DNA from: an uncultured Clostridium sp.
GTDB taxonomy: Bacteria; Bacillota; Clostridia; Lachnospirales; Lachnospiraceae
Length of the DNA: 32,932 nucleotides
Reading direction: 5' to 3'
NCBI GenBank assembly: GCA_945915475.1
Contig: CAMEFI010000035.1
Span: 1 to 32,932, forward strand
Numbering within the stretch: the stretch's first letter is position 1; every line of letters begins with the position of its first letter. The notes below the pieces were generated by a model. It made no database searches, was not told where the DNA came from, and saw nothing but the letters and a program-made list of their open reading frames with translations. Below, piece after piece: positions 2,682 through 32,627 of this stretch. Both the position numbers and the translations under genes were made by a program.

Positions 2682-2734
2682 GATCGCATACTATTCTTAG
2701 TTTGGGAAACGGAGATATAGTATGCGATCTTTTT
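2682..2734 (+). terminator. recN terminator hairpin overlapping the spoIVB start
   Basis: A perfect 13-bp inverted repeat (2682-2694 and 2717-2729) is followed by TTTTT, the form of an intrinsic terminator. The right arm contains the spoIVB ATG at 2722 and the loop contains its ribosome binding site, so any recN read-through transcript would end here or hide the spoIVB start. Confidence 0.7.
2687..2693 (+). promoter_or_regulatory. Candidate forespore (sigma-F/G-type) -10 element of spoIVB
   Basis: CATACTA is an exact match to the sigma-G/F -10 consensus known from Bacillus, and spoIVB is a forespore gene. It lies in the left arm of the recN terminator hairpin. A transcript starting about 7-10 bases downstream would lack that arm and leave the spoIVB start codon free. 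The -35 region near 2665-2670 (CATGAA) is a weak match, so this is tentative. Confidence 0.4.
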
Positions 2735-10566: not shown

Positions 10567-10586
10567 ACTGTCTCTACTTAGACAGT
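10567..10586 (-). terminator. Hairpin at the transposase stop codon
   Basis: ACTGTCT (10567-10573) and AGACAGT (10580-10586) form a perfect 7-bp stem across the stop codon of the transposase. There is no T run on the minus strand, so it is a weak terminator at best or an mRNA 3' structure. Confidence 0.35.
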
Positions 10587-12082: not shown

Positions 12083-12151
12083 AGAGGGCACCTTCCTTTG
12101 TTTGTATTGGTTTTGTCGCTAAATACTTTATCACAAAGAGGTGCCCTCTAT
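12081..12151 (-). promoter_or_regulatory. Inverted repeat that can hide the transposase start codon
   Basis: A perfect 13-bp repeat, 12081-12093 and 12139-12151 (AGGTGCCCTCTAT in mRNA sense next to the start). A transcript entering from outside the element folds so that AUG is paired. A transcript starting inside the 45-base loop would lack the 5' arm and be translated. This is the known logic by which IS10 and IS50 ignore read-through transcription. Confidence 0.65.
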
Positions 12152-14021: not shown

Positions 14022-17000
14022 TTAAATGTTTCCGCCATTATTTTGTAATTCATTCATGAGTTCGGTGCCTGCGGTTACATTTTTGAAGGAACAGCCATTT
14101 ATTACGATGCATGGCTTGTATGGGATATCAATGGATTTTCCTTCGCCCTTACGATGCAGTCTCATTAGTCTGTATTGTTCATAGCAGGCAAGAATGGTGT
14201 CATTATCCCAGGGGATAACTGTGTCCCAATAAGCAAAATCCATTTCATCGGAATCTTTTTCTCCATCATCAAAAACATAATGTACTGAGAAGGGATTGTT
14301 ATGCAAATCTTTCCAGAAATTGATATCGCGGTGATCAAATATTTTGATTACTTCTGAAAAGTCATCTGCACAATAAGCGTAATTGTTGCAATTCTTTTCG
14401 GTACGATATTGGTTTGACAGAGCAAAGTCATGTCTGCAGTAAATCATCTGTAATTTATCAAAGTTCTTTTTTAATGAAACCTCACGCTCACCATTAAAAC
14501 TGCAGCATCTTATATTTTGGAATGCTTCGTCAGCAGGGTAGTGATGAAGGAAAAAGCCATTTGTTACCCAATAAGTCTGATATTCTTCTTTTGTATAGGC
14601 AGCACCGGAACCTATATCATAGCTGTAATGAAGAAAGTCAGAAGCTGATTCCCTTGTTAAGGTAGGCATATAATATCGCCATTCTTTTTTATAGCTTGTT
14701 CCGTTTGGTCTGTGGCTGATTGAGTACATATCACAATGGGGTTCAATATGAGGTTTGTCATAATTGAAGTGTTCCACAATTGCAATCTGAATCTGTGGAA
14801 CTGTTGTGTCTGTATAACAGCCATCCACAAACAATTCATTGTCTGTGGATTTTGCGACACAATAAATGTTTTTGCTCTTGCAGTCGTATTCTAGACAGAA
14901 ACTGGAAAGTGTAATGAGCAGGTAATCTCCGGATGGATGGAACTGTATGCTTTCCAAGATGTCATAGGCTTGTAGGGTGGAGTATATAATTTCTCTTTCT
15001 CCGGTGTTAAGATTTATTAACTCTACATACTCATGACTGGGTTTGCTGAACATAATTGCCAGCTGCATCGTTTCTTCGTGATAACAGCATCCTGAAGCGT
15101 AATATTCAGGGTCGTGGTAACACAGGGAATTCATTAGCCTTATCGGTTCGCCACCGAATACAGATATACCATTAAATTGATGTACAAGAATTCCCAATTG
15201 ATGATGCTTGTCGTAAATCAAATCCCTTGTTTCATACAATTTGGTGTTATATCGGTGCAGAAGGGTATCATTTTCCGTGTCCCACTCATAAGTGTTCTCA
15301 GAGTTTCGGACAATGAAGCGATTCCAGCTTGGCGTAATATTGGGATAAAAAATCAAGTCCTCCAATTCATCATTATCATTTAGCAGATTACTTAAGGTTG
15401 CTATATCATAGGTCATTAAAATATGCTGCTGATTATTGCTGTTTATGGATACGCTGTAGCTCTTTTTTGGATATATGATATAACATTCGTCAGCCCGGTC
15501 CGGACAATAATGGATAGCGGAAGGTGTATTTCCATCATTTTCAAGGGTTATTTCTTCAAATACGATTTCGGCTTTGTTATCTTTACAAGAGAATAATTCT
15601 AACTGCCCGCTTCCTTCATTAAACAATAAGAAACAGTTTTGACTTGGGAAATACCTTGTTATCGGGTATGTGCCGGGTACTCCACTAAAATTATATAATT
15701 TATCTATACTGTCATTTATAGGAGAGCAGCGGAACAGTACACAAGGAATTGGGAGATATGAAGTATCCCAGCCATCGTCATAGTCGTATAGATCATCTTC
15801 CGTTTCGTTCACATATTCTTCTTCATTCTCATATTCCGGATAGAAATCTGCGGAATCAAAATTATCATATTCGCCGCTGAATGCATAAATATCTGATTTG
15901 TCATTAAGGGCATATAATTCAGTATGTTTCATAAAATCTGTAAATTCTTTGTGATAGCAGATACTTGTATCTTCGATATGAAAACAATATAAATATTTTT
16001 GATCAGCAAGATATAAAATATGTGCATTATCCTCTGTGAAGGAGAAACTTGTAATTGTCGTATGTGATGCAGGTGTTTTTAGGATGCGTGGTTTTTGCTC
16101 AGGATTATGCAAATCAAATACAAAAAGACAGGATTTTGGTAAATCGTCTATTTCGGTATTGTTATATGCCTTCGCAGCAAGCCAGCGACCATCCTTTGAT
16201 ACCTTCATATATCCATTTGGTGAGTAATCAGTAAACCCGTTTGGATCACCTGACTGCAAAATAAATTCAATGCAGCCGGATAGGATATCCCAGCATTTGA
16301 TTACACCGGACATATCCAAAGTAAAGCAGTGTTGACCGGAGTAAACATATTCCTCAATATTGCTTACATGATCATCCGGTTCAAGGAAATCATCCGGTAG
16401 AATGGAGTTATCAAAATTGGCAGCCAAGGTCTTCTTACATCCTTTTTTACTGCATGGCACTGAAAAAATATTACAGTGGCTAAAGTCAAGATTACTTAAG
16501 TCCATTCCGGATAGTTCCTGTCTGCCATAAACGATAGCAGACAAAATATTATGAAGCAGATGATGTGAGGGCTGATGTCCTTTTAATGTCCTGCAGAAAT
16601 CAATTGCTTTTGAAAGTACCTTTTGCTCGTCTGTAGCTGGATTTGGAAGCATCCAGTTCTGGGTTCGTTTATTCAAAACAGGCTTGTTATGATGTTCCAT
16701 CAAAATCTGGCTTATCAATTCTTTTTTGCTATGGTTCCAATAGAAGGAATTCAGAAAGTAATGATAAGTGTATTTTGCATTTCCGGAACTGTTTTTTGCA
16801 AAAGCATCAGGATTGATATACGGAAGCATTCTTAGCAGCTGTATATCAAACATGGCAGAGAAGTAATCTCTGAAATAGTGATGCACAAAAGAAAACTGAT
16901 TGCGCTCATTCATTTCTTTTTCCGGTGCAAGGTAATGATAGAGTATTCCCAGGTAATCAAAAGCACATCCGATTATTTTTGATGGCGCATTATCAAGAGA

Positions 17001-18674
17001 GACGAGGGAATTACATTTTTCCGCAAATAATTCAGCATTAAACTGAAAATCTTCAAATGGTGCAACACCGGATGGTACAAACATATATTGCAGAATCCGG
17101 AGCGCTTCATTGATACACGATTTTAAGCTGTTTTCCGACATGGAAAAGGAATCATTTCTTTCTAAAGTCCAGCCAATGTAGGGAAGAATGAAATCTAAGG
17201 TCAGGGCAGTATGCAGTTCTTCTAGGGGATTTGTCTGCGTATCTTTTGCACGCATTCTTGCATTATAAAAGGTTGAGTTACCGTGGAAGAAATAGTATAA
17301 AATTTCACCTCTTGTTTCGGGTAGATTCTCTTTTCCGGTGGTATATTCATAGGAAAACATACATAGGAAAAGGGGAACCTTTAAGCACTTCATTAAGGAC
17401 TTATTGGCTAAAGTGATACCAATAGCAGTTTCTGAAAAATTCCGTTCTTTCAAGTGCTCAATAATTTCTGTTTCTTCCAATCCAACCAGATATATATTCT
17501 GAAAAGAAGAGGTAAAGTGTGCTGCCTGTGTTTCACGACTGGTCGCAATAATACGAACATTTCTGTAATTATTGTGAATGGTAGTAATTTCATTACTTAG
17601 CATTGCTCTACAGGAGCAGCAATCTCCATTTTTTTCAACGCTTATTTCATTAAAGCCGTCCAACAGGAGAAGGTACTGGGGGATTCCGTTATCCGGTATC
17701 CGCTGAAATTCCTTTTCAATTTCTTTTAGAAGATTCTCAGAAACATCATCAAGTGACTGATGATTCTCAATCAGTTGCCCTACATATCGGGTTATAAAGT
17801 TTGTTTTCTTATGTTTGTCCTCGTACCAATCTGCAATATGTGCAGGGCATTGTTTCAATTCTATGAAAATAGGTACAGGGCGTCCGCTTTTATAGGTAGC
17901 AGGCTTATTTTTGCCAACCAGATATTCTTCCTGAAGTATCTGTTGAAGAAAGGTCGTTTTCCCGATTCCTCCCTCACCGGTAACAGCGATATCCTGCATC
18001 TCGTTTTCTTTGCAGAGATCCATCAATGGACGGACTTCACCATCAATGGTTCTGGCACGGAGCTGAAAGTTATCTTCGGTAACATAACCCTGCGGAAGGA
18101 GTCTTTCAATGATATTCAGTTCAAAGAAACGGCTTCCGTAGGCTCTTGAATCAAGAAAGGATCTTTGTTCTGCCTGCCATATCTTTTGCAGCATTGGGAA
18201 ATCAGTAAGAGGATTTTCTAAATGCATAAAATCAAGACTTAGATTGTATTCGGTTGTTTCAGATAACAGTGTATGATAGCTGCCCATAATCACACAAGCT
18301 GCGATAAAACGGGCAAGCTGATATGGAACATTGGGATTACAGGCAGCAATCAGCCTATCCTTATGTCCCTTTGGAAGATAGCTGCAACAAACGACCAATG
18401 ATTTTAATTTGTCATAAAGAGACAGTTTGTTATGTACCCTTGTTAAATATTTGGTATTGATTCTGTCACAGAACTGGTTGAAATTCGGTTCCTCACAGTA
18501 ATAATCCTGTCTGTCACCTTTAAGCCCTCGGGTTGAAAAAAGCTTCTTAGCGATATCTTCATAGGATGAAGCATTTGTCATGGTATCATCTGTAAATAAA
18601 AGAATATACAGGGCTACATTTGTTGAAAATGCACCTTCATCCTTTAAGACATGTAACACATCTCCAAGTTTCAT
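14022..18674 (-). CDS. NACHT/STAND NTPase with C-terminal beta-propeller (candidate immune sensor)
   Basis: A 1550-residue cytoplasmic signal-transducing ATPase. Residues 1 to about 225 form an N-terminal domain I cannot assign. The NTPase follows: Walker A GEGGIGKT at 233-240, Walker B LLLLDGFNE at 335-343 and sensor RIIATSRE at 374-381. A helical region follows, then a short pentapeptide-like stretch (LSGMDLSNLDFSHCNI, near 745). The remaining 750 or so residues are WD40/beta-propeller-like (GVIKCWDILSG; VSKDGRWLAAK; FHPSGDYLLITL) with one very acidic loop. AAGGAGG eight bases upstream supports ATG 18674 over the upstream GTG at 18695. Bacterial NACHT proteins are known antiphage sensors; the effector activity here is unknown. 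It is divergent from a sigma-like gene. Confidence 0.85.
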   Translation of the reverse strand: MKLGDVLHVLKDEGAFSTNVALYILLFTDDTMTNASSYEDIAKKLFSTRGLKGDRQDYYCEEPNFNQFCDRINTKYLTRVHNKLSLYDKLKSLVVCCSYLPKGHKDRLIAACNPNVPYQLARFIAACVIMGSYHTLLSETTEYNLSLDFMHLENPLTDFPMLQKIWQAEQRSFLDSRAYGSRFFELNIIERLLPQGYVTEDNFQLRARTIDGEVRPLMDLCKENEMQDIAVTGEGGIGKTTFLQQILQEEYLVGKNKPATYKSGRPVPIFIELKQCPAHIADWYEDKHKKTNFITRYVGQLIENHQSLDDVSENLLKEIEKEFQRIPDNGIPQYLLLLDGFNEISVEKNGDCCSCRAMLSNEITTIHNNYRNVRIIATSRETQAAHFTSSFQNIYLVGLEETEIIEHLKERNFSETAIGITLANKSLMKCLKVPLFLCMFSYEYTTGKENLPETRGEILYYFFHGNSTFYNARMRAKDTQTNPLEELHTALTLDFILPYIGWTLERNDSFSMSENSLKSCINEALRILQYMFVPSGVAPFEDFQFNAELFAEKCNSLVSLDNAPSKIIGCAFDYLGILYHYLAPEKEMNERNQFSFVHHYFRDYFSAMFDIQLLRMLPYINPDAFAKNSSGNAKYTYHYFLNSFYWNHSKKELISQILMEHHNKPVLNKRTQNWMLPNPATDEQKVLSKAIDFCRTLKGHQPSHHLLHNILSAIVYGRQELSGMDLSNLDFSHCNIFSVPCSKKGCKKTLAANFDNSILPDDFLEPDDHVSNIEEYVYSGQHCFTLDMSGVIKCWDILSGCIEFILQSGDPNGFTDYSPNGYMKVSKDGRWLAAKAYNNTEIDDLPKSCLFVFDLHNPEQKPRILKTPASHTTITSFSFTEDNAHILYLADQKYLYCFHIEDTSICYHKEFTDFMKHTELYALNDKSDIYAFSGEYDNFDSADFYPEYENEEEYVNETEDDLYDYDDGWDTSYLPIPCVLFRCSPINDSIDKLYNFSGVPGTYPITRYFPSQNCFLLFNEGSGQLELFSCKDNKAEIVFEEITLENDGNTPSAIHYCPDRADECYIIYPKKSYSVSINSNNQQHILMTYDIATLSNLLNDNDELEDLIFYPNITPSWNRFIVRNSENTYEWDTENDTLLHRYNTKLYETRDLIYDKHHQLGILVHQFNGISVFGGEPIRLMNSLCYHDPEYYASGCCYHEETMQLAIMFSKPSHEYVELINLNTGEREIIYSTLQAYDILESIQFHPSGDYLLITLSSFCLEYDCKSKNIYCVAKSTDNELFVDGCYTDTTVPQIQIAIVEHFNYDKPHIEPHCDMYSISHRPNGTSYKKEWRYYMPTLTRESASDFLHYSYDIGSGAAYTKEEYQTYWVTNGFFLHHYPADEAFQNIRCCSFNGEREVSLKKNFDKLQMIYCRHDFALSNQYRTEKNCNNYAYCADDFSEVIKIFDHRDINFWKDLHNNPFSVHYVFDDGEKDSDEMDFAYWDTVIPWDNDTILACYEQYRLMRLHRKGEGKSIDIPYKPCIVINGCSFKNVTAGTELMNELQNNGGNI

Positions 18675-18690
18675 TGCAAATTCCTCCTTA

Positions 18691-18718
18691 GTCACTTATT
18701 TGGCACTTATATGTCACT
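18691..18718 (-). promoter_or_regulatory. Three 11-bp-spaced direct repeats ahead of the NACHT gene
   Basis: GTCACT (18691), GGCACT (18702) and GTCACT (18713), the first two followed by TTAT. The period of 11 is about one helical turn. They end just upstream of the AAGGAGG of the NACHT gene, so they could be a repressor site or a 5' mRNA binding site. Confidence 0.4.
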
Positions 18719-18874
18719 GACAGTATTTTGCTTTGAAAGTAAAATAAAGTCACAAACAGTACAACATTATCTTATCACATTTTTTGCTTGATAGATATGC
18801 TGAACTGCCAATTCATGCGATTCGATCCGCGGAGAATTTGTCGGTGGCATGAAAAAACTAAATAACGATGAGTA

Positions 18875-18943
18875 GGTTACACCGAAACCGCTTTACCCCA
18901 AATGGAGATCATTTTGTAAAGCGGATTTGGTGTAGCCTGTTTT
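18875..18943 (+). terminator. Attenuator-like hairpin in the leader of sigma-like gene 1
   Basis: Arms 18875-18896 and 18916-18937 pair at 19 of 22 positions (left arm begins GGTTACACC, right arm ends GGTGTAGCC), with an inner AAATG/CATTT stem, followed by TGTTTTTG. This lies 45 bases before the gene start and has the form of an intrinsic terminator in a leader. Confidence 0.55.
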
Positions 18944-18955
18944 TGCATATAAATG

Positions 18956-18986
18956 GCTTCTCCTTTTGGGAACGAAAGGAGAAAGC
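18956..18986 (+). promoter_or_regulatory. Hairpin that can pair the ribosome binding site of sigma-like gene 1
   Basis: GCTTCTCCTTT (18956-18966) pairs with AAAGGAGAAAGC (18975-18986) with one bulge, so the AAAGGAG ribosome binding site is enclosed in the stem directly before ATG 18988. Confidence 0.55.
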
Positions 18987-18987
18987 T

Positions 18988-20040
18988 ATGCAGAAAAGAG
19001 AGATTGAAGAAATTTTAGGTTGTGGAAATTGTGCTGAGTTAAGTCCTGAATACCGTAAGGTGGCTTACTCTATTGCAGTTGATTTTGTAAAGCAGTTTAG
19101 TATTCCTGACAGTGGGTATATTCTTGATTTGGATTTGGTAAAACGGAGAATCGAAAATCTAATGTACCAAGATTTACTGAAAGATCCCTTTATTATTCCA
19201 TCTGAGTTCAGAAGTTTCTTTAGGCTTTCTGAGATTTTTATGGATGTAAAGGCGATAGATTTTCTGATTACGCTGGCAGGAGAAGAGGAAGAGTTTGCCT
19301 TTGAGTATATAAAGCATTTCTTTGCTCCGTTTATAATTTCCTACATGAGACATCATCAATTTATGATAAGCTCTTTAGACCAGAGAGAAGTTATCTCAAT
19401 ACTATACACGGAAACTTATTTTGCTGTCCGCAAATGTGCACAGAAGAGAATGGAGGAAGCAGCTCTGGCAATGCTGGAAGAAAGAGAGGCTAAGAAGATA
19501 TTCTTCAGCTTCAAAACGCTTAGCCTGATGTACAGGGCTGCTGTCAATGAACTATATGGTGTCGTAATTCTGCCATTTACATTGCACAGGAAGGATACGG
19601 AGCAGTACTACCGCTTTAGGGCAACTATTTCAAATACGAATCATCATTATGGAACTGGTGATGTGGCTGAATTATCCAATCGTCTGTCTATTGCAGAAAA
19701 TACGCTGCGGCAGTATTGGGAATTATACAATATGGAAGTATCCGGCTTTATTTCGACATCCAGTATGGCAGAAGATGAACGGACGGAAAATATGTATGGA
19801 GCTACTTATGAAACAGGATATGAACGCATGGACATTAACAGTATCCGTGATCATAAGTTTAGGTCAGAGGCTGACCGCAGGATTTTTGATCATCTGGTGG
19901 AAAATGCTTCAAGTACATTCTGCAGGAATGAGATTGAAGAAATTGGAACGACAAGATATCGCATCGGTCAGGTTTTGAATGATTTGCGCGTTGAATTTAA
20001 AGATGAAGTGCAAGTTTCAAGATTAATTCCAATTAAGTAA
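18988..20040 (+). CDS. Sigma-70-like regulatory protein, paralog 1
   Basis: A 350-residue protein whose layout resembles a divergent sigma-70 factor: a region-2-like helical stretch (SLDQREVISILYTETYFAVRKC, about 125-150), a region-3-like LPFTLHRKDTEQYYRFRA, and a region-4-like C-terminus (RRIFDHLVENAS ... NEIEEIGTTRYRIGQVLNDL). It is a clear relative of the 352-residue protein at 20097-21155: both open with P-x-(Y/F)-(R/K) then A-x-S-(I/L)-A and K-x-F-S, and both end with RIF and a TRY-containing helix. AAAGGAGAAAGCT fixes ATG 18988. The gene is divergent from the NACHT gene and its leader holds two hairpins, so expression is probably conditional. Sigma activity is inferred, not shown. Confidence 0.6.
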   Translation: MQKREIEEILGCGNCAELSPEYRKVAYSIAVDFVKQFSIPDSGYILDLDLVKRRIENLMYQDLLKDPFIIPSEFRSFFRLSEIFMDVKAIDFLITLAGEEEEFAFEYIKHFFAPFIISYMRHHQFMISSLDQREVISILYTETYFAVRKCAQKRMEEAALAMLEEREAKKIFFSFKTLSLMYRAAVNELYGVVILPFTLHRKDTEQYYRFRATISNTNHHYGTGDVAELSNRLSIAENTLRQYWELYNMEVSGFISTSSMAEDERTENMYGATYETGYERMDINSIRDHKFRSEADRRIFDHLVENASSTFCRNEIEEIGTTRYRIGQVLNDLRVEFKDEVQVSRLIPIK

Positions 20041-20096: not shown

Positions 20097-21155
20097 TTAG
20101 AAGAATTCTTTTCTTATCTGATTCTTTAGTTTTGAAAGAGCATATCTGGTATATTCGTAATCATTTTTTAATTCATCATTGGTAAAGGATGCTCCGTCTG
20201 CTTCGGTCAAGCGATAGAAGATCCGCTGATCCCTGCTGTCTGTGAAGACCTGCTTCGTGAACAAATCCATCTCTACCTCGGAATAACCGGCTTCCATAGA
20301 TGGTGCAGTGCGGTCAATCATTGTATCGGACTCTTCATCATAGTAAGTAGCAGATACAATTCCATTGTGTTCAATTATATAAAGGGAATAGTAATCATAT
20401 GCTTTTCGAAGCGTAATCTTACAGCCATAATGAAGATCCTTTTCATCAATGGAGAAGAGGAGGTTTCTTTTAGAGCGTTCCTCATCTGAAAGATTGATTT
20501 CTTCGAGAAAACAGGCTAAATTTGACGGAGTAAGGGAGTACCGCTCGATAAAGTATGAGAGTTTCATATAGTTGGTATAATCATTTCTTGGCATACCAAA
20601 TGTGTGCATTTCTCCTCCAAGCTGTGTAATAGCGGCAAATAGTTCAAGGTCAAGGTAAGAGAAGGAAAAGGGATGCTCCGGGGAATAGCGCTCCAAGACT
20701 TTGAATAATGCAATCATCATTACTTCATCAACATCCGCCTCATCTAAATTTTTTATGTATGCTATTTTATGTTTCTTAAAGCTGTAAAGTTTTCTGGCAA
20801 AAAAGCAGATTACATATGGAAATGTTTCTTCTGGATAAGTCTTGTAGGTTTGAACCAATGTCTGGATATCTGCCGGACTGTAGAACAAAGTGTCAGCATT
20901 GATATATTTTGTAAATGTATTAGGGCTGAAATCAGGATTAGATCTCAACTGTTCATTTACAAGATTACAGACACGGGCATAAACAATATTAAAATCCATA
21001 AGGTAAAGACCGGTCATTGAAAAGGTCTTTTGATACCTGATTGCAAGAGAAGACGCTTTTTCCTTGAATTCAACAGGAATTGGAGCGGAGTTACATCTAA
21101 GTGTAGATGCGATAGATTGACGGGTTGCTGAGTTTGTTTTGTTTGGAATAAACAT
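20097..21155 (-). CDS. Sigma-70-like regulatory protein, paralog 2
   Basis: A 352-residue relative of the protein at 18988-20040, transcribed towards it. A region-2-like stretch is ADVDEVMMIALFKVLERY; a region-3-like segment is MPRNDYTNYMKLSYFIERY; the C-terminus (DQRIFYRLTEADGASFTNDELK ... TRYALSKLKNQI) is region-4-like. ATG 21155 is selected by GGAGG eight bases upstream; the upstream in-frame ATG 21188 has none. Its leader region (21163-21340) contains interleaved inverted repeats, an IncQ-type nick motif and a further perfect hairpin. Two related regulators in opposite orientation suggest duplication and divergence within the element. Assignment as sigma factors is moderate. Confidence 0.58.
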   Translation of the reverse strand: MFIPNKTNSATRQSIASTLRCNSAPIPVEFKEKASSLAIRYQKTFSMTGLYLMDFNIVYARVCNLVNEQLRSNPDFSPNTFTKYINADTLFYSPADIQTLVQTYKTYPEETFPYVICFFARKLYSFKKHKIAYIKNLDEADVDEVMMIALFKVLERYSPEHPFSFSYLDLELFAAITQLGGEMHTFGMPRNDYTNYMKLSYFIERYSLTPSNLACFLEEINLSDEERSKRNLLFSIDEKDLHYGCKITLRKAYDYYSLYIIEHNGIVSATYYDEESDTMIDRTAPSMEAGYSEVEMDLFTKQVFTDSRDQRIFYRLTEADGASFTNDELKNDYEYTRYALSKLKNQIRKEFF

Positions 21156-21188
21156 AGTCTTGTCCTCCATTTCATGATGTGTGGTCAT

Positions 21189-21910: not shown

Positions 21911-21931
21911 TTCGACAAAAGTTCGACAAAA
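21911..21931 (+). repeat. Tandem TTCGACAAAA repeats upstream of the FtsZ-like gene
   Basis: TTCGACAAAA at 21911-21920 and again at 21922-21931, 11 bases apart; the related TGTCGAA at 21828-21834 is in inverse orientation near the divergent promoter. This is consistent with an operator for a shared regulator. Confidence 0.4.
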
Positions 21932-21992
21932 CTTCACTTTTTATTCAATGTATGATATATTATCTACAAATAAAGTGCAAAAGGGGGAGCAT

Positions 21993-23309
21993 ATGGGAAA
22001 TAAATATCCGTTGAGTTTTGCCGTATTTTACCAGAGTATTATTAAGCACTGCAGTAATTACAATCAGTTTTATACGGTTCATGCACTGTTTTTTGGAAAG
22101 ATTATAGACAAGAATTCTTTTGTTGATAAAATTTCAGCAGGTACAGTTTCAGAGTATGTAAAAGCGAAAAGACCAATCAGAGCAGAGAGAGTTGAATTCA
22201 TATGTACCGCAACTATTTCTGAACTAGCAGAGCATATCAGAATTATTAATATTCAGGATATTTCATATGCGGTTGAAGCAATTAAGCGGTTGATAGCAAT
22301 CACGGATTTAAGCCGTGATTTGAAAAAGAAGCTTACAAGGAAAGCGGATGAGTATAGCAATAAGCTTGAATATATAGCAGAAATTTTTCAGATGTCAGTG
22401 AAGGTCTTCCGTAAGTTGGATTTGGACGATAAACAAATTAGTGAGCTGGATGCTATTTGGAATGGAGAAACAGAGAATATTGGTATTGGAAATGCCGATG
22501 TGAAACAAAATTCAAAATATACAAATAACTCCGATGAAGTGAAGTTCAGAGCTGGTTTTATAGACCATGTTAATGATATATTACAGGAAGAGGCTGGACT
22601 TTCAAGAAAAACCTTATATTTCCAGGGCGGTTCGGTGGAGTGTCATAATGTACTTCTTCCGGATGATTATGATAATCTGATAAGATTTTTAGGGAAATTC
22701 CTTGAAAAGAAAGGGCTTGTTGAGATTGACTTTGCGGATTTCCTCACAATATCGGGTCTGAATCCTGTGGAGAAGGAATTAATGAATGGAAGTCTTTCTT
22801 TGTATAGAATAATGGGAGATGTTGATTTCTGCATAAAAACGGTGAACGATTTACCAAAGCAGGAGTATGCTGGCGGGGTGCTCATAAATGCCAGCATTGG
22901 TAAGGCGACAGAGGTTCAGCAACTATATGATCTCTTTGCAGAAATAAACCTATACTTTGAGAATGCCGAATGTATTATTGGAGTGAATATAGATGAGGAG
23001 ATACCCGATAAACTGGTTATAGTATATTTGGCTGTTAGATATAGCAGTATGATTCATGAAAAAGTTAAGGTAAAGAACCACAGAGATAGTGTTTTAGAAC
23101 AAATTGAAAAGGAAATAATGGAACAATTTTTTTATGAACAACAATTTAGTGAACAGGAGAAATCCTCGGAGACACCTGAGTATTTAAAGAAAAGGCGTAT
23201 GTCAGGGGGCAGTTCGGCAAAAGATGGTCCTCAAATACCGAGTTTTTTGAAAAATAGAACTGTTATTCATAAAGCGGAAGATGACATTGAAGATATGGAC
23301 GATGAATAG
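21993..23309 (+). CDS. FtsZ C-terminal-half protein with an unrelated N-terminus (candidate FtsZ decoy or capper)
   Basis: A 438-residue protein. Residues 1 to about 180 are a helical domain I cannot assign (it includes GTVSEYVKAKRPI, faintly HTH-like). From about 225 the sequence follows FtsZ: KGLVEIDFADFLTI (240-253) matches the FtsZ T7 loop GLINVDFADVRTVM and keeps both aspartates (246, 249). GGVLINASIG (294-303) matches GVLxNITGG, and IIGVNIDEEIPDKLVI (328-343) matches the late FtsZ strand pair. The tail has a linker and PQIPSFLKNR (413-422), like the FtsZ C-terminal peptide that binds FtsA and other partners. The GTP-binding half with GGGTGTG is absent. ATG 21993 follows AAGGGGGAG. Likely role, by inference: binding FtsZ filament ends or FtsZ partners. 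Confidence 0.65.
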   Translation: MGNKYPLSFAVFYQSIIKHCSNYNQFYTVHALFFGKIIDKNSFVDKISAGTVSEYVKAKRPIRAERVEFICTATISELAEHIRIINIQDISYAVEAIKRLIAITDLSRDLKKKLTRKADEYSNKLEYIAEIFQMSVKVFRKLDLDDKQISELDAIWNGETENIGIGNADVKQNSKYTNNSDEVKFRAGFIDHVNDILQEEAGLSRKTLYFQGGSVECHNVLLPDDYDNLIRFLGKFLEKKGLVEIDFADFLTISGLNPVEKELMNGSLSLYRIMGDVDFCIKTVNDLPKQEYAGGVLINASIGKATEVQQLYDLFAEINLYFENAECIIGVNIDEEIPDKLVIVYLAVRYSSMIHEKVKVKNHRDSVLEQIEKEIMEQFFYEQQFSEQEKSSETPEYLKKRRMSGGSSAKDGPQIPSFLKNRTVIHKAEDDIEDMDDE

Positions 23310-23345
23310 CTAACTTTTATATTGTCTTTTTTATATTACGAAAAT

Positions 23346-23373
23346 TTGACTTTTTATGTAAACAATGTATGAA
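23346..23373 (+). promoter_or_regulatory. Promoter of the 23404 gene, resembling that of the FtsZ-like gene
   Basis: TTGACT (23346-23351), a 16-base spacer and TATGAA (23368-23373). The stretch ACTTTTTAT...CAATGTATGA is shared with 21936-21955 ahead of the FtsZ-like gene. Confidence 0.45.
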
Positions 23374-23403
23374 ATATATTAGATTTATCATCAGGAGGTA
23401 TAT

Positions 23404-23823
23404 ATGTCAAACTTTATACAATCAAAATTAAGTCATAAATCATTAGATGCTTTTGTACAAAAATACGCAACCACAGAACAAGATTCTCATGCAATTCCTT
23501 ATACGACTGAAAATGGTCAAAATATATTTTTTTATGTAGCTGATGTTTATATGGAATTAAATAATATAGAAGAATTCAAATATCTTTTAGGTCAAACTAT
23601 TCCATATCATTCAACTAATGCAGAGTTTCCTATTCAAGATTTGGCATTTATTAAAAACGAAGATGGCTCAAAACAATTATGGACTAAAAACTCAAAACTT
23701 TTAACACAATTTGTAACAATAGCCAACCGACTTACACTTTTAACGTTGAAAAAAGGTTCAAAAGGAGAACCAATCGCAAAACGTTCTGACAATGTAGTAC
23801 CAGTAATACATAAAGAAAAATAA
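23404..23823 (+). CDS. Hypothetical AT-rich protein (139 residues)
   Basis: I do not recognise a family. The protein is soluble, with no signal peptide or membrane segment, mixed alpha/beta, and ends in a basic tail (RLTLLTLKKGSKGEPIAKRS ... HKEK). AGGAGG lies about five bases before ATG. Its base composition is clearly more AT-rich than the relaxase next door, pointing to separate acquisition. It is 94 bases after the FtsZ-like gene, on the same strand, with its own promoter that shares a sequence block with the promoter region of that gene; the two may be expressed together. A long terminator-like hairpin follows. Confidence 0.6.
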   Translation: MSNFIQSKLSHKSLDAFVQKYATTEQDSHAIPYTTENGQNIFFYVADVYMELNNIEEFKYLLGQTIPYHSTNAEFPIQDLAFIKNEDGSKQLWTKNSKLLTQFVTIANRLTLLTLKKGSKGEPIAKRSDNVVPVIHKEK

Positions 23824-23835
23824 TAATCAAATGTC

Positions 23836-23873
23836 TGAAGCAAGGGAATGGTGTGAGCCATTCCCTTGCTTCA
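23836..23873. terminator. Perfect 16-bp hairpin between convergent genes
   Basis: TGAAGCAAGGGAATGG (23836-23851) pairs completely with 23858-23873 around a 6-base loop. No long T run follows on either strand, but its position between convergent genes fits a terminator. Confidence 0.65.
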
Positions 23874-23880
23874 TATAGAC

Positions 23881-26478
23881 CTATAACTCTACATCCACAT
23901 CTATGACATCTTTCTTTCCAGCTCCGGAAGGGGACTTGCCGGATGGCGTATCTTTGGCGTCTTTGTCCTCACGTTCAATAACCTCCGGTGCTTCATGGAC
24001 TTTTTCGTCAAAGAGGGAGCCAAAGATGAAGCTTGGGGATTCGGAGTAGGTCAACTGCTGTTTGAGTGTCAGCAAATCACGATATTCTGCAGAAAGCGAA
24101 GTACGTTCTGTCTCTAAGGCTTGGTATTCCTGGCGGAAGGTTTCTATTTCCTGTATGATTGCTTCGGGGTGGAGCGGATCAATGCCAAGAGATAAGAGCT
24201 CATTGGTCTGGTTACGGAGCTTTAGAAGGAGCAGCTGTTTCTTCTCGGTGATTCCGTCAACCTGAATGGACTTTACAAATTCTTCTGTCCGGTCTGGTTT
24301 TACTTCTACAGGCTTAACACAGTCAGGGGTCTGTCCCTGACTTAAGACATATCCGTACATACGGTCAAAGTCTGCCTTGCACATTTCGGATACTGGAATT
24401 GTAGAGTGGATATTTTTGGCATCCATAAAGGACTGCAGCTTTTGAACATCCATTGGACTGATAGCCGGAGAGTTTTTGAGTAATCCGGGTGCGGTTCTGG
24501 TAAAACCATTCATGTAGTCAAGGAGCTTTTTATATTCTGAGGGAAGGACATATTTTACATCCCGGTTCAGAGATAATCCATGCTCGGTAAGTCTTTGTGA
24601 CAGATAGAGGGCGGCATCTTCTCCAATCGGTGCTTCGGAAAAAGGATTGCTGCCATAGCAGTTATGGATATTGATGACATCATATTGAGTAAGTGTTGAA
24701 AGATTGACGGTCTTCGTTGGGGGAAAGCCATTTGGTGTAACCGGCGTGGTATATCCGGCGCCGGTTATGGCAATTCCGTGTGCTGATAGCAATGCAGCCA
24801 CTTCATCCATCTGGTATTTTTGTATCGGCTTGTCAAATTTCTGCTTCAGGAATTCGTTTCTTTTCTGGTAGGTGCGCTCCATTGTGACATCAACAGAGTT
24901 TTTCAGTGCGGATGGTGGGTCATTCCTTGTTCCCTTGAAAAATGAAAAGATTTCTTCTGCATCCATTGCGGAGATCCCGGAGAAGCCGTCTCCGGAAAGC
25001 GTGTATTCAGGGTGTTTCTGCAATGCAAGGTACAAATCACGCTTTTGGGTGCCGGACATAGGACAAAGAGCAGCCTTTGATTTCTGCACATCCATCTCTG
25101 AGGGACTATTTATCATTAAATCCGGCATTTGCCCGTCAGGCCAGTAACGGATAGAATCCACCATGTGCTTGGTGGATTTGTAAGCGGAAAGCATTGGGGC
25201 AATAATATCATAGTATTCCTTTTGGGGAGCCATTTTGTTCATTTCGGATTTTATATGGCTTAATTGGGCTCCAACGGCATCCAGCTTTCTTGTAAAAGCT
25301 TCTTTGTTTTCAAGGTTCATTTTTTGAACTGTGGTAAGTGCCTGTTCCATAAGCTCCAGCTTTCTGGAGATGGTGTGAGTGGTGGAAAAGCCTTTTGCCA
25401 TATACCGGCTGCCGACATGCCGGATCAGGGCGATTGCCTTGCGTATCAGAAGCTCCAAATCACTGCGCCGTCTGCCGTTCCAGTCATATCTTGCTATGGA
25501 TATGGTTTTCGGGCGTTTGCGGTATGCTTCGGGTTCCCTTCCGATAATGTATTCAGGAGTAGGAGCGTTTTCGTGGGTAAGGATGTTTTCTGAAAAAAGA
25601 GAGCCAAGCTCATAGGCATCTCCAAGGGTTTTGTCACGAATCTTTCTTGTATGTGTTTTGTTCCACCAGGTAATCGAATTTGCTTCCTGCCTGGCTATCG
25701 TATAGCCGTAGTCCTGCATAATGGTAATAAAATCTTCCCGGCTGTCACTGACGCTTCTGGCAGCAGCAATATCCCGTTTCATTTCTTCTTTCCATGAGAT
25801 ATTCTGTCTCTTGGCATCCCAATCTCGATAATTGTGATGTCCCTTGGATTTGGTAAGCTGTGAGCGCGGATCAGCAAACTTTAACTCTATGCCAAACTCG
25901 CGCTGAATGGCATCTGAGAGCTCACGAATCTCCATACGTTTATCTGCGGTAAGACAGAACTTGGACACTCCATCGGGCATGTAGGCATTTATGATGATAT
26001 GATTGTGTAAATGCTCCTTATTCAGGTGGGTGTCAACCACTGCCTGAACGCCAAGCCTTTCACAGAGCTCGATTCCAGCCTGATGTACGGTGTGACAGTC
26101 AAGGTCTGTCTCGGCAAAGGACTGGATGAGATGGATTGCAGTAACGGGCTCCTTGTGAACCATCCGGGTTGTTCCGGTAATTTTGTCCGTATAATCGAAA
26201 GTGGAATAGCGTTCGCCGTCATGGGAGGCAAGGTATTTTTCCCTTACAATGCCAAATTCCACTAAGGCAGTTTCAGGTTGACAGAGCACGCCGGATACTA
26301 AGAGTTCCTTATCTCCATCGTCCAGATTTGCAATTGTTTTTAAGGGATTTGCGGCATATTCCAAAGCATTGGAAAGTCCATTCATGCTGACAGAGGTTTT
26401 TTCCTGATTGGCTCCATAGTCAAGCAGATGGGACAGGTTGCTGCCATGAATGGCAATGGTTTTACAGATGGCGGTCAT
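23881..26478 (-). CDS. Relaxase / mobilisation nuclease (MobP-like)
   Basis: An 865-residue DNA strand transferase that nicks oriT and pilots the strand into the recipient. The N-terminal relaxase domain has LLDYGANQEKT, where Tyr21 is the likely nicking tyrosine, and the metal-binding motif DTHLNKEHLHNHIIIN at 149-164 with His151, His158 and His160 as ligands. The remaining 650 or so residues are helical, with a tail of Asp/Glu-rich sequence (REDKDAKDTPSG ... DVDVEL) that may be the transfer signal. The start overlaps the end of mobC by 17 bases, indicating translational coupling. It points opposite to the VirB4 and NlpC genes, unlike intact C. difficile CTn-type elements. Confidence 0.88.
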   Translation of the reverse strand: MTAICKTIAIHGSNLSHLLDYGANQEKTSVSMNGLSNALEYAANPLKTIANLDDGDKELLVSGVLCQPETALVEFGIVREKYLASHDGERYSTFDYTDKITGTTRMVHKEPVTAIHLIQSFAETDLDCHTVHQAGIELCERLGVQAVVDTHLNKEHLHNHIIINAYMPDGVSKFCLTADKRMEIRELSDAIQREFGIELKFADPRSQLTKSKGHHNYRDWDAKRQNISWKEEMKRDIAAARSVSDSREDFITIMQDYGYTIARQEANSITWWNKTHTRKIRDKTLGDAYELGSLFSENILTHENAPTPEYIIGREPEAYRKRPKTISIARYDWNGRRRSDLELLIRKAIALIRHVGSRYMAKGFSTTHTISRKLELMEQALTTVQKMNLENKEAFTRKLDAVGAQLSHIKSEMNKMAPQKEYYDIIAPMLSAYKSTKHMVDSIRYWPDGQMPDLMINSPSEMDVQKSKAALCPMSGTQKRDLYLALQKHPEYTLSGDGFSGISAMDAEEIFSFFKGTRNDPPSALKNSVDVTMERTYQKRNEFLKQKFDKPIQKYQMDEVAALLSAHGIAITGAGYTTPVTPNGFPPTKTVNLSTLTQYDVINIHNCYGSNPFSEAPIGEDAALYLSQRLTEHGLSLNRDVKYVLPSEYKKLLDYMNGFTRTAPGLLKNSPAISPMDVQKLQSFMDAKNIHSTIPVSEMCKADFDRMYGYVLSQGQTPDCVKPVEVKPDRTEEFVKSIQVDGITEKKQLLLLKLRNQTNELLSLGIDPLHPEAIIQEIETFRQEYQALETERTSLSAEYRDLLTLKQQLTYSESPSFIFGSLFDEKVHEAPEVIEREDKDAKDTPSGKSPSGAGKKDVIDVDVEL

Positions 26479-27969: not shown

Positions 27970-28596
27970 ATGTTAAAAACTTATTTGATGGAGAATTACG
28001 GATATAATGAGCCTATATTTCTCAATGATCTAGTGATTGAGGGACTGTCTGATAATGCAGTTCGCCAGTCAGTAAAGAGACTTGTCGCAAGTGGCTTTTT
28101 AGAGAGATATGATAATGGAATTTACTATATACCAAAGCGTGGTGGACTGTTAGGTAAAAGTTATCTTGATCCATCCATGGTTATTATGCGTAAATATGTG
28201 CAGAACAAATCAGAGATTTACGGATATGTTACAGGAATTTCTTTTGCAAATCAATTAGGATTAACAACGCAGATGCCTGCAGTTATAGAGGTTGTTACCA
28301 ACCGTGAAGCAACCAATGGACGAATGATTATGGTTGGGTCGCAGAGAGTCAGGATTAAGAAGCCTGCTATTACAGTTTCTGATTCCAATGCAGAGCTCTT
28401 ACAGCTTTTGGATACTATTGGTCAGGCTGAAAAATATACCGAACTTACAATAGAAGAAACGATAGAAACATTGATTTCTTATATGAGAAAAAAGCGTTTT
28501 ACAAAAGAACAATTATCAGAGGTATCTTCCGTTTTAACCGGTGCAACTGCTAAGAAGCTAATTGAATGGGGGATGATTTATGAATTTGCATCATGA
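27970..28596 (+). CDS. AbiEi-type antitoxin / transcriptional regulator (DUF6088-like)
   Basis: A 208-residue antitoxin of the type IV AbiE system, which represses its own operon and counters the toxin without binding it directly. The N-terminal winged helix is visible in LSDNAVRQSVKRLVASGFLERYDNGIYYIPKR (about 27-58), and the C-terminal domain begins near IYGYVTGISFANQLGLTTQ, a pattern shared by AbiEi-like proteins. GGAGGTG precedes ATG 27970 at six to seven bases. It overlaps the toxin gene by 17 bases, the coupling expected for such pairs. It has a clear promoter; no inverted-repeat operator was recognised with confidence. Confidence 0.8.
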   Translation: MLKTYLMENYGYNEPIFLNDLVIEGLSDNAVRQSVKRLVASGFLERYDNGIYYIPKRGGLLGKSYLDPSMVIMRKYVQNKSEIYGYVTGISFANQLGLTTQMPAVIEVVTNREATNGRMIMVGSQRVRIKKPAITVSDSNAELLQLLDTIGQAEKYTELTIEETIETLISYMRKKRFTKEQLSEVSSVLTGATAKKLIEWGMIYEFAS

Positions 28597-29494
28597 CAGA
28601 GAAGCATTTGAGGAACTAATAATCGGTGCTGCTAATGAGCTTGCAATACCAACGAATGTAATTGAAAAGGATTATTATGTAACAATCACGCTTAAGGCAT
28701 TATCAGAAAAGCTGGAGGATATGGTATTCAAGGGTGGAACCTCTCTTACGAAATGCTACCAGCTGTTAGACCGTTTTTCAGAAGACATTGATATATCTTA
28801 TACAGCTGAGTCAGGAACACCGGGAGATGCCAGAAAGAGGCAGTTAAAAAAAGCTGTTGTTACTACGATGGAGGAATTTGGATTTCCGATTACGAATCTT
28901 GATATGACAAGAAGCCGCAGGCATTACAACTGTTATAGAGCAACATACCCGTCTATGTATGAGCAGTCCAATATATTAAAGCCGGAATTGGTGGTGGAAA
29001 CCTATGTGGCATTGCTTCCGTTTCCGACAACGAAAAGAATGGTTGATAACTATATCTATCGTTTCTTAAACAAAATAAATCGTTTGGATTTAGCGGAGAC
29101 TTATGATTTGATGCCTTTTGAAATTACAACACAGACCATTGAAAGAACACTGGCAGATAAAGTTTTTGCACTTTGTGATTACTATATGCAAGGTGAGATC
29201 GAGCGACATTCCAGACATTTGTATGATATATACAAAATTGTACGCGCTATCGGTGTTACAGAGGAATTGGCTAAACTGATTCCGGAGGTAAGAGCCGTGC
29301 GTTCAGAACTGTCTATTTGCCCTTCTGCTAAGGAAGGTGTATGTGTAACAGATATTTTGAACGAAATGATGGAAAGTCAGGCCTACAGAAAAGATTATGA
29401 AGATATAACGCTGGGGCTGCTCTTTGTACCGGAAACATATGATACAGTGATACAGAGTATCAAACAGCTTGCAGATAGTGAAATTTGGAAATAG
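28580..29494 (+). CDS. abiEii: AbiEii toxin, nucleotidyltransferase
   Basis: A 304-residue nucleotidyltransferase toxin of the AbiE type IV toxin-antitoxin / abortive infection family. Characteristic residues are visible: EKDYYVT (29-35), FKGGTSLTKCY (50-60), RFSEDIDIS (65-73, the DxD metal pair) and, further on, RTLADKVFALCDYY. Full family length. The family transfers nucleotides to RNA substrates such as tRNA and halts growth; in this element it would serve phage defence and maintenance of the element. It overlaps the antitoxin gene. No terminator in standard form directly follows; the hairpin array begins 20 bases after the stop. Confidence 0.88.
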   Translation: MNLHHDREAFEELIIGAANELAIPTNVIEKDYYVTITLKALSEKLEDMVFKGGTSLTKCYQLLDRFSEDIDISYTAESGTPGDARKRQLKKAVVTTMEEFGFPITNLDMTRSRRHYNCYRATYPSMYEQSNILKPELVVETYVALLPFPTTKRMVDNYIYRFLNKINRLDLAETYDLMPFEITTQTIERTLADKVFALCDYYMQGEIERHSRHLYDIYKIVRAIGVTEELAKLIPEVRAVRSELSICPSAKEGVCVTDILNEMMESQAYRKDYEDITLGLLFVPETYDTVIQSIKQLADSEIWK

Positions 29495-30239: not shown

Positions 30240-32627
30240 ATGGGTTCGAAGAAAACAAGAATTGAACTTCACTGTCATAGTGTTTATAGCGAGAGAGATG
30301 GTGTAAGCAGTGTAAGAGATTTGATTACAGTAGCTGATAGATTAGGCATATCAGGGATGGCTTTTACGGATCATAATTCGGTTGCTGGATATGGAGAAAC
30401 TATGCGTTATTCCAGACAGATTCCAGAATTTCAGATGATATATGGAATGGAAGGGATTGTGGTGGATGATATAGATGCTAACAGAAATGCAGAATATAAT
30501 AAAATAGCATCGACATACCATGTTTCTTTTCTGATTCGCAATGAAATTGGAAAACAGAATCTCTTTCGGCTGATAACTAAGAGCAATTTTCAGTGTAAGG
30601 GAAAGCAATCAGTAATCCCTTGGAGTGAAATAGAAAAGCATAGAGAGGGATTACTAATAGGTAGTGCTTGTTCTGCCGGACAGTTATATGATTTGATTCG
30701 CACTGACGCAACAGAAGAGGAACTACATCGGATAGCGAAAAGGTATGACTATTTGGAAGTGCAACCTGCAGACAGTAAATTGTTCTTGATAAAGGATGCA
30801 TGTGATTATGATGCAGCAATTGCCAAAATACAAGAATACGATAGAAAGGTTGTAGATATTGGAGCGCGGCTTGACATTCCTGTTGTAGCTACCGGTAATG
30901 TTCATTTTGCGACTGCGGAGGAAAGTAGTGTAAGAGCAATTATTCAATGTTACTTAGGAAATGAAAACGACGAACAATATGCTCTTCAGATCAGGAGCAC
31001 TGAGGAAATGCTGGAGGCTTTTTCTTATTTGGGGAAGGAAAAAGCGTATGAGATTGTGGTTGAAAATACTCATAGAATAGCAGAGCAGATAGAAGAGTTT
31101 GAGGTGCTTCCTACTGAGACAAAGAAGTATTATCCGGTACTGGATAATGCATATGAAAGATTATCTGAGATTTGCTTTCAAAGGTTGAAAAAAATATATG
31201 GAAATACCATTGAACAGAGTATCTTGGATATACTTGATTGGGAACTGAATGGTCTTAGGGAGAGTGGTTCGGATTCTATTCTGCTTTTGGCAAAAGAATT
31301 GGTTAATGAGACAGGATTAAGTCCATATGAATTTGGCTATAGGGGAATTCTCGGAGGACTTTTAACTGCTTATCTGTGTGGACTCACCTGTATAAATCCT
31401 TTAGAAGCAAAGCTCTTACTTTACCCGGAGTTTGTAATAGGAATTGATGGCGACAAGGAAGTTGATATTGATTTCAATTTCCCGGTTAAATTCAGAGATA
31501 AAGTGCAGGCACTGTGCGCTGAACTGGAAGAGGTGGGAGATTCCTTCCATTCTGCTACAGTAGAAACCATGTCAGATTGGGAAGCATATTCTGCAGTAGA
31601 CGAATATGAGTCTTATCATGAGATTGAATATACACAGGAAAAGAGAGAATGGTTATTAAATCGCTTAAGAAATGTGATATGGAAACACTGTGAGCAACCA
31701 GAAGGAAATGTACTTGTTCCGGAAGGCTGTGATATTTCAGAATTTACGCCATTGGAAGATCTAAACCATGAAGTTAGTATGGTAAGCTACCATGACCTTG
31801 ATGGATATCTGTATAAGTTTGATGTCTTGACAAATGATTCTGTAGAAATGGTCTACAGGCTCATGAAAAGAACGGGGGTAAATGTTAAGGATATTTCCCT
31901 TGATGATGAGGATGTTGCGAAAATGTTTTCTGATAGAACTGTTTGGAACGGTGAAGAAAAAAAGGGAATGGATGCAATTGGTGTTCCAGAGTTCCAGACA
32001 CAGTATATGTATATTCTGGCCTGTCAAATTGGTGTTGATTCTTTTACGGATGTTGTTAAGGTAATTGCCTTAGCACATGGTACTGGTGTATGGTATGGAA
32101 ATGCGGAGGATTTATTAAAAGACGGTATCTATACGAAAGACAGCATATTAGCAACCAGAGAGGACATATTCGAATGTTTGCTGGTTTTGGGATTTTGCAG
32201 GGAGGAAGCTTTTGCAATAGCTGAATTTGTACGAAAAGGGAAAGCTTCCTACAGTCACTCAGAAAAGTGGGATAAGTGGAAACAAAAGATAATGGAAGCA
32301 GGTGCACCGGAGTGGTTTGTCTGGTCGTGCGAACAGATAAAGTATATGTTTCCTAGAGCACACGCTTACAGATATGCTTTGGATGCATGGTGGTGTGCGT
32401 GGTTTAAGTTTCATTATCCAAAAGAATTCTATCAAGTATATTTTGAGTTATGCAAAAATAGAAATTTGCTTGAAGTCATCAAAAAGGGAGAGGAAGCATT
32501 CAAACTATATAAGCAGGGATATTTTGCTGGAATGAGTGGTTCTGCTGGTAAGGAAGATACTTCTGGATTGATAATCCCAGATTTTTTGGTGGTGGAAGAG
32601 ATGTTTTCAAGAGGAATACGAATATAA
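30240..32627 (+). CDS. Miniature PolC-like DNA polymerase III alpha relative (PHP domain plus polymerase core)
   Basis: 795 residues against about 1440 for host PolC. The N-terminal PHP domain (ELHCHSVYSERDGV, His11/His13; FTDHNSV, 42-48) runs without the inserted exonuclease. PolC-type blocks follow: GLLIGSACSAGQLY, PVVATGNVHF, TTEEMLEAFSYLG-like RSTEEMLEAFSYLG, VDIDFNF (408-414) and YKFDVLTND (526-534). Asp409, Asp411 and Asp528 match the polymerase metal-binding aspartates in spacing. Later blocks are GVPEFQTQYM, ALAHGTGVWYGNAEDL and IKYMFPRAHAYRYALDAW. The OB domain, exonuclease, Cys zinc module and C-terminal domains are missing. AAAGGAG six bases upstream fixes the start. It could be an element replication polymerase or a non-catalytic competitor. 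Confidence 0.75.
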   Translation: MGSKKTRIELHCHSVYSERDGVSSVRDLITVADRLGISGMAFTDHNSVAGYGETMRYSRQIPEFQMIYGMEGIVVDDIDANRNAEYNKIASTYHVSFLIRNEIGKQNLFRLITKSNFQCKGKQSVIPWSEIEKHREGLLIGSACSAGQLYDLIRTDATEEELHRIAKRYDYLEVQPADSKLFLIKDACDYDAAIAKIQEYDRKVVDIGARLDIPVVATGNVHFATAEESSVRAIIQCYLGNENDEQYALQIRSTEEMLEAFSYLGKEKAYEIVVENTHRIAEQIEEFEVLPTETKKYYPVLDNAYERLSEICFQRLKKIYGNTIEQSILDILDWELNGLRESGSDSILLLAKELVNETGLSPYEFGYRGILGGLLTAYLCGLTCINPLEAKLLLYPEFVIGIDGDKEVDIDFNFPVKFRDKVQALCAELEEVGDSFHSATVETMSDWEAYSAVDEYESYHEIEYTQEKREWLLNRLRNVIWKHCEQPEGNVLVPEGCDISEFTPLEDLNHEVSMVSYHDLDGYLYKFDVLTNDSVEMVYRLMKRTGVNVKDISLDDEDVAKMFSDRTVWNGEEKKGMDAIGVPEFQTQYMYILACQIGVDSFTDVVKVIALAHGTGVWYGNAEDLLKDGIYTKDSILATREDIFECLLVLGFCREEAFAIAEFVRKGKASYSHSEKWDKWKQKIMEAGAPEWFVWSCEQIKYMFPRAHAYRYALDAWWCAWFKFHYPKEFYQVYFELCKNRNLLEVIKKGEEAFKLYKQGYFAGMSGSAGKEDTSGLIIPDFLVVEEMFSRGIRI

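Follow-up and report, generated by a model that had tools for sequence, protein, structure and literature searches.

Genomic context of the FtsZ-like gene

The window (the whole stretch of DNA that was analysed, 32,932 nucleotides) comes from a spore-forming bacterium and carries a conjugative-type element inserted in spoIVB. The genes to the left of about position 3,900 are those for NAD kinase, argR, a recN-like protein and spoIVB. The spoIVB gene (2722-3900) is cut exactly after GGIVQGM, just before the catalytic-serine motif; the break falls within its S55 domain, of which profile positions 2-175 of 210 are covered, and element DNA follows. This amounts to a skin-like insertion into a sporulation gene. 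Another S55 gene, this one of full length, is located at G000:C18:53707-54327, and the 3' remainder of spoIVB did not appear in the S55 gene search. The element gene set comprises a VirB4-like ATPase (recognized by eye, with no Pfam match), an NlpC/P60 gene, a relaxase and a NikA-like gene. Judged by the relaxase, related elements are present in 4 of 200 family genomes, the source included; inspection by eye of the related elements L133 and L134 revealed no similar cargo. The features surrounding the FtsZ-like gene are:

10577-12091: UPF0236 protein inside the element
14022-18695: 1,557-residue NACHT-like protein in the cargo zone, a possible antiphage gene (PF05729, E 8.5e-6, just under the cut-off)
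18868-20040 and 20097-21188: two convergent ORFs, distantly of sigma-factor type by eye (weak PHROG matches only)
21928..21962, + strand: promoter-like box ACTTTTTAT..CAATGTATGATATATTA before the FtsZ-like gene
23341..23379, + strand: promoter-like box ACTTTTTAT..CAATGTATGATATATTA before the 139-residue gene
23404..23823, + strand: companion gene encoding 139 residues (ORF), on the same strand as the FtsZ-like gene
23836..23873, no strand assigned: 16-bp inverted repeat without mismatches, lying between convergent genes; a terminator scan did not flag it
23884..26478, - strand: MobA/VirD2-type relaxase of the element (PF03432, E 2.8e-20)
27970-29494: AbiEi/AbiEii type IV toxin-antitoxin pair

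The NACHT-like gene, the two convergent ORFs, the FtsZ-like gene and the 139-residue gene are enclosed by the element genes, and the AbiEi/AbiEii pair comes after them. The FtsZ-like and 139-residue genes stand between the NACHT-like gene and the AbiEi/AbiEii pair. No Pfam or NCBIfam family was found for the two convergent ORFs. The promoter-like boxes lie 47 bases (FtsZ-like gene) and 41 bases (139-residue gene) upstream of the start codons, and the two genes are possibly co-regulated. With up to three mismatches the box occurs 3 times in the window against 0.92 expected, a count that is suggestive only, because 8 of 100 shuffles equalled it. The 139-residue gene matched the PolC model TIGR01405 (E 4.8e-5 and 3.4e-4; model positions 307-425). 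A BLASTP comparison with the host PolC gave no match over this region, and a profile of four PolC rows reported shuffles but not the gene; its apparent resemblance to part of PolC is doubtful. Across 98 genomes it has 5 matches at E <= 0.1, its own included. A 795-residue PolC/DnaE-like protein is encoded at 30240-32627; its matches to the PolC model cover positions 86-174, 372-679 and 728-1127, and leave out the exonuclease part at 175-371.

Layout of the 438-residue protein

The FtsZ-like gene and its parts are:

21993..23309, + strand: gene for a 438-residue protein with an N-terminal module, a segment like the C-terminal half of FtsZ and a two-peptide tail (ORF, GGGGGAG before the ATG)
21993..22430, + strand: N-terminal module, residues 1-146 (faintly similar to a DUF2806 protein at its N-terminus)
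22653..23048, + strand: FtsZ-like segment, residues 221-352, covering the end of H7, T7, H8-H9, S8, H10, S9 and S10 (sequence tests)
22710..22751, + strand: T7-loop-like KGLVEIDFADFLTI at residues 240-253, with both aspartates retained and Glu in place of Asn (alignment A3)
23169..23198, + strand: first C-terminal-peptide-like motif, ETPEYLKKRR, residues 393-402 (motif count)
23229..23258, + strand: second C-terminal-peptide-like motif, PQIPSFLKNR, residues 413-422 (motif count)

A longer in-frame start is also present at ATG 21906, but ATG 21993 looks better because GGGGGAG sits just upstream of it. The initial annotation had described three blocks in the order and spacing of FtsZ, and all three were located: KGLVEIDFADFLTI begins at residue 240, GGVLINASIG at 294 and IIGVNIDEEIPDKLVI at 328. 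The FtsZ-type order runs from the end of H7 through the T7 loop (DFAD), S8, H10, S9 and S10 to the tail, and in an alignment with 34 FtsZs (A3) the protein's row has a single one-residue gap over the stretch from the H7 end to S10. The N-terminal GTPase domain of FtsZ bears the tubulin signature GGGTGTG. This half is absent from the 438 residues, and Pfam recognized no FtsZ/tubulin GTPase family in them. As far as the sequence can tell, the locus is as the initial annotation had described it: a C-terminal half of FtsZ with its terminal peptide, lacking the GTPase half, attached to a different N-terminus and carried by a mobile element.

Sequence evidence for homology to FtsZ

Profile and shuffle tests support, at the level of sequence, homology of the segment to the C-terminal half of FtsZ, although every single score is weak. 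One profile was made from 22 FtsZs that were picked independently, by Pfam PF12327 and not by their likeness to the 438-residue protein. Against it the segment scored 17.4 bits (E 0.0023 among 20,003 sequences), and the best of 20,000 shuffles 10.8 bits; the whole protein scored 14.9 bits (E 0.014), and the segment's two matched pieces alone scored 4.4 and 11.1 bits. When 12 FtsZs picked by likeness were added, the resulting 34-FtsZ profile gave the segment 22.1 bits, versus 11.6 for shuffles. The substitution score in the aligned register is +45.6, which is 7 sd above the shuffle mean (-107, sd 21.5), and the hydropathy correlation in that register is 0.52 (maximum among 20,000 shuffles, 0.38), though the register test is somewhat favoured because the register itself was taken from an alignment. 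With the gap left out, the expected place still scores highest among the protein's 320 registers, though the score is negative.

The initial annotation had staked its reading in part on a profile search of this region, and FtsZ is what such searches returned (TIGR00065, PF12327 and the 22-FtsZ profile). For residues 192-371, TIGR00065 FtsZ was the sole NCBIfam model matched (E 0.0024) and PF12327 the sole Pfam model (E 0.17). Both fall below their curated cut-offs (17.3 of 295.2 bits for TIGR00065, 12.6 of 27 bits for PF12327), and in the PF12327 run two unrelated long ORFs, at 14.6 and 14.4 bits, scored slightly above the FtsZ-like protein at 13.0. The Pfam signal is also fragile, because a cut running to the protein end matched PF00250 Forkhead instead. 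The uncut protein matched no Pfam family and had two weak NCBIfam matches, neither of them FtsZ. In phmmer searches of the PDB, FtsZ accounted for 8 of 10 matches with the segment as query (best E 0.041) and for 5 of 6 with the full protein (E-values of at least 0.04). A single-sequence hhalign comparison gave P 0.00039 but a probability of 35%. The C-terminal half had a match at E <= 1 in 114 of 392 order genomes, the source genome included. These comprise at least 29 non-self loci in frames of 373-438 residues, and all 12 that were aligned are FtsZ over that stretch.

Conserved positions and predicted fold

The FtsZ-like segment retains some parts of the FtsZ pattern and has lost others. Among columns at least 90% conserved in the 34 FtsZs, the protein is identical in 5 of 14 for H7-T7, in none of the 12 for H8-S7-H9, in 2 of 6 around S8 and in 4 of 9 for S9-S10; it differs in the single such column of H10. 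The S7 block is lost, no conserved column between the T7 loop and S8 being identical. In the T7 loop (N-x-DFAD) the DFAD is retained, so that both aspartates are present as the initial annotation had observed, and the preceding Asn is Glu.

These positions bear on the idea of a filament capper or monomer binder whose T7 face would engage the GTP face of host FtsZ and stall treadmilling. The two retained catalytic aspartates and the surviving part of the S9/S10 pattern speak for it, and the change of the T7 Asn to Glu and the loss of S7 speak against it. In S. aureus FtsZ, according to PMC8936486, the T7 Asn bonds the neighbouring subunit and coordinates K+. The same source describes mutations of the bottom interface as toxic, in contrast to those of the top interface, and places filament growth at the T7-exposing end; a protein offering the T7 face alone would meet the slow end. 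We regard capping as improbable; of what the earlier reading proposed, it has the weakest support.

AlphaFold2 run without an alignment gave a poor model with pLDDT 45.0 (the other four models, 29.9-33.2) and pTM 0.40, in which, low as the pLDDT is, the order of helices and strands reads like FtsZ H7 to S10. Of 870 Foldseek matches to this model at E <= 10, none reached 0.001, and neither FtsZ nor tubulin was among the best 50.

Relatives, origin and the N-terminal module

Apart from the protein itself, searches of 26 genomes of the genus and 397 of the family yielded no relative of the whole protein, and the plasmid, phage, IMG/VR and genome_contigs collections yielded none either. The C-terminal half had none in IMG/VR or genome_contigs and the N-terminal half none in IMG/VR; look-ups in these two collections seed on short exact peptides, so distant relatives are missed. 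Pattern searches of IMG/VR returned 12 stretches with the T7 motif and 6 with FxVFY, and all 18 were without FtsZ-like or similar context. One IMG/VR contig of 126 kb encodes a 311-residue FtsZ-like protein (L198:479-1414) in which the GTPase half is present and the T7 loop reads DFADF, much as in the 438-residue protein. The A3 profile found matches in 227 of 236 order genomes. A recent copy of the host ftsZ was considered as the source and set aside: pairwise BLASTP against host FtsZ yields short pieces only, namely an 18-residue piece at T7 (E 0.087) and pieces of the tail. Since no relatives were found, there is no conservation to show which parts of the protein matter.

Residues 1-146 show no FtsZ similarity, in agreement with the earlier statement that the N-terminus is a different one. 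The module has no Pfam family, and the PDB yields one match only, at E 2; no toxin, signalling, helix-turn-helix (HTH) or partition domain or family was recognized in it with Pfam and NCBIfam. One possible relative is L071, a DUF2806 protein that matches with its N-terminus (E 0.0013, pairwise BLASTP 4e-7); as the best of 299 genomes at that per-genome E, the match could be due to chance. Matches at E <= 1 occur in 55 of the 299 genomes, and a two-row profile of the module matched in 22 of 295 at E <= 0.05, the source being included in both counts. By eye, L073, L076, L077, L081 and L093, and L102, L107 and L112 from the two-row profile, are unrelated to the module; weak family matches to a sodium:alanine symporter, agcS and TatB were set aside as chance. 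Searches of plasmids and phages returned no match to the module and nothing better than E 7 for the L071 N-terminus, which also had none in IMG/VR.

A decaying or chimeric gene that now lacks a function, or a chance likeness to FtsZ, would fit the failure to find relatives in the searched collections, the weak single scores and the lack of an FtsZ fold in the best 50 of 870 Foldseek rows. We consider this quite unlikely, given that the frame of 438 codons is intact and has a good ribosome-binding site, that the segment scores 6.6 bits above the best shuffle and 7 sd out in the register test, and that the FtsZ block order is joined by tail peptides.

Paired tail peptides and a proposed action

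The initial annotation had noted a single FtsZ-like C-terminal peptide, PQIPSFLKNR, which was borne out; it had overlooked a second, ETPEYLKKRR, so that the 73-residue tail carries two peptides of FtsZ type within 30 residues. This tail has two copies of the pattern P-x-[FYW]-L-[KRN], against one in the 9,065 residues of 19 other window ORFs. None of 100,000 tail shuffles contained it twice, a result that is only a guide because the motif was picked after the sequence was seen. Neither peptide is at the very end of the protein: a 16-residue acidic stretch lies beyond the last, and host FtsZ ends at its peptide. The pair resembles host FtsZ's own, consisting of an internal KPSFLNN and a terminal IKIPEFLKRR. 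Two other full-length FtsZs of the genus carry KPSFLNG or KPSFLNN with the same terminal peptide, and two from other families have the end peptide only.

FtsA, SepF and similar factors read the C-terminal peptide of FtsZ. We tentatively propose, as a reading that may well hold but falls short of being probable, that the protein is a division-machinery mimic of the FtsZ-type C-terminal half and acts mainly through its paired tail peptides. The two peptides would dock on these readers in the host divisome, in place of FtsZ or beside it, and would either compete for the tail-reading factors or recruit the protein to them. The N-terminal module, together with the degenerate FtsZ domain, could then block or redirect the work of the Z-ring, the remaining FtsZ segment aiding docking or serving as a scaffold. 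A possible gain is that host division is held back while the element is active. Docking, the effect on division and the benefit to the element are all inferred here. The FtsZ-type segment, the likeness of the tail peptides to those of host FtsZ, and the relaxase and NikA-like neighbours speak for this reading; the acidic extension past the last peptide, the lack of relatives, the unexplained N-terminal module and the poor AlphaFold2/Foldseek outcome speak against it. Confidence in the proposed action is limited because any relative is lacking. The doubled tail peptide, as a feature of the sequence, favours titration of division partners among the two actions suggested earlier. Precedent in principle is provided by the arrest of division in cells with activated Tn916, as described in PMC9632896.

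The protein might instead be a tether, with a tail that addresses it to the Z-ring and an N-terminal module that binds DNA or membrane and brings the element or its machinery to the division site. By eye the module looks rich in helices and seems to include an HTH-like stretch. Neither an HTH nor a partition family was found, and the element is integrated in this assembly and therefore does not need its own segregation. We judge a tether very improbable.

Could the FtsZ segment be a bait?

Integrated decoys operate in plant immune receptors. By analogy, the FtsZ C-terminal domain could be bait within an antiphage protein that senses phage division inhibitors. This is the chief rival to the mimic reading, a possibility of some weight but on the whole not a likely one. 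The scheme, to which we give the same modest credence, is that a phage FtsZ inhibitor binding the T7-face bait would switch on the N-terminal module or the 139-residue partner. Retention of the T7-loop aspartates after loss of the GTPase half is consistent with a bait, as is the position of the gene between the NACHT-like gene and the AbiEi/AbiEii pair. According to PMC13423816, the synergy-loop face of FtsZ is where SulA and MciZ bind and where modelling places T7 Gp0.4 as well; the complex of Gp0.4 with FtsZ is what CapRelEbc senses. PADLOC, however, assigned 0 families to the protein and its two parts, the N-terminal module contains no recognized toxin or signalling domain, and a bait has no obvious need of two C-terminal peptides. 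The narrower form, in which the element captured a T7-bearing half of FtsZ within an immune protein and a phage inhibitor is the trigger, we hold to be unlikely.

Comparison with known systems

Through this protein the element may disturb or monitor the division machinery of its host. Known mobile-element agents that interfere with host division are, to our knowledge, proteins unrelated to FtsZ. Among the papers listed on FtsZ with antiphage systems or decoys, with C-terminal peptides, mimics, prophages and mobile elements, and with integrative and conjugative elements, no title or abstract opening described an FtsZ C-terminal half without its GTPase half. The protein shares with FtsZ (TIGR00065; PF12327) the order of H7 end, T7 DFAD, S8, H10, S9-S10, linker and C-terminal peptide. 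Unlike FtsZ, it has no nucleotide-binding half, has lost the S7 block, has Glu for the T7 Asn, begins with an unrelated N-terminal module and continues 16 residues past the last peptide. If the reading is true, an agent made from the C-terminal half of FtsZ would be a natural dominant-negative or decoy, and the roles of the FtsZ C-terminal domain and C-terminal peptide would become separable.

We know of no FtsZ building block in Gp0.4, Kil, SulA or MciZ. The FtsZ inhibitors T7 Gp0.4 and lambda Kil are phage-encoded; SulA, MciZ and Gp0.4 bind the synergy-loop surface (PMC13423816, PMC8936486). The growth-arrest genes orf17/orf16 of Tn916 likewise belong to a conjugative element whose activation arrests host division; they act with host yqaR, and the abstract of PMC9632896 mentions no FtsZ-like part. 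CapRelEbc also couples phage inhibition of FtsZ to immunity, but it senses host FtsZ in trans and consists of toxin and antitoxin domains, with no FtsZ domain described in the available text of PMC13423816. An agent made from an FtsZ half would also make it possible to test directly whether immune proteins of bacteria contain parts of those host proteins that are targets of phages.
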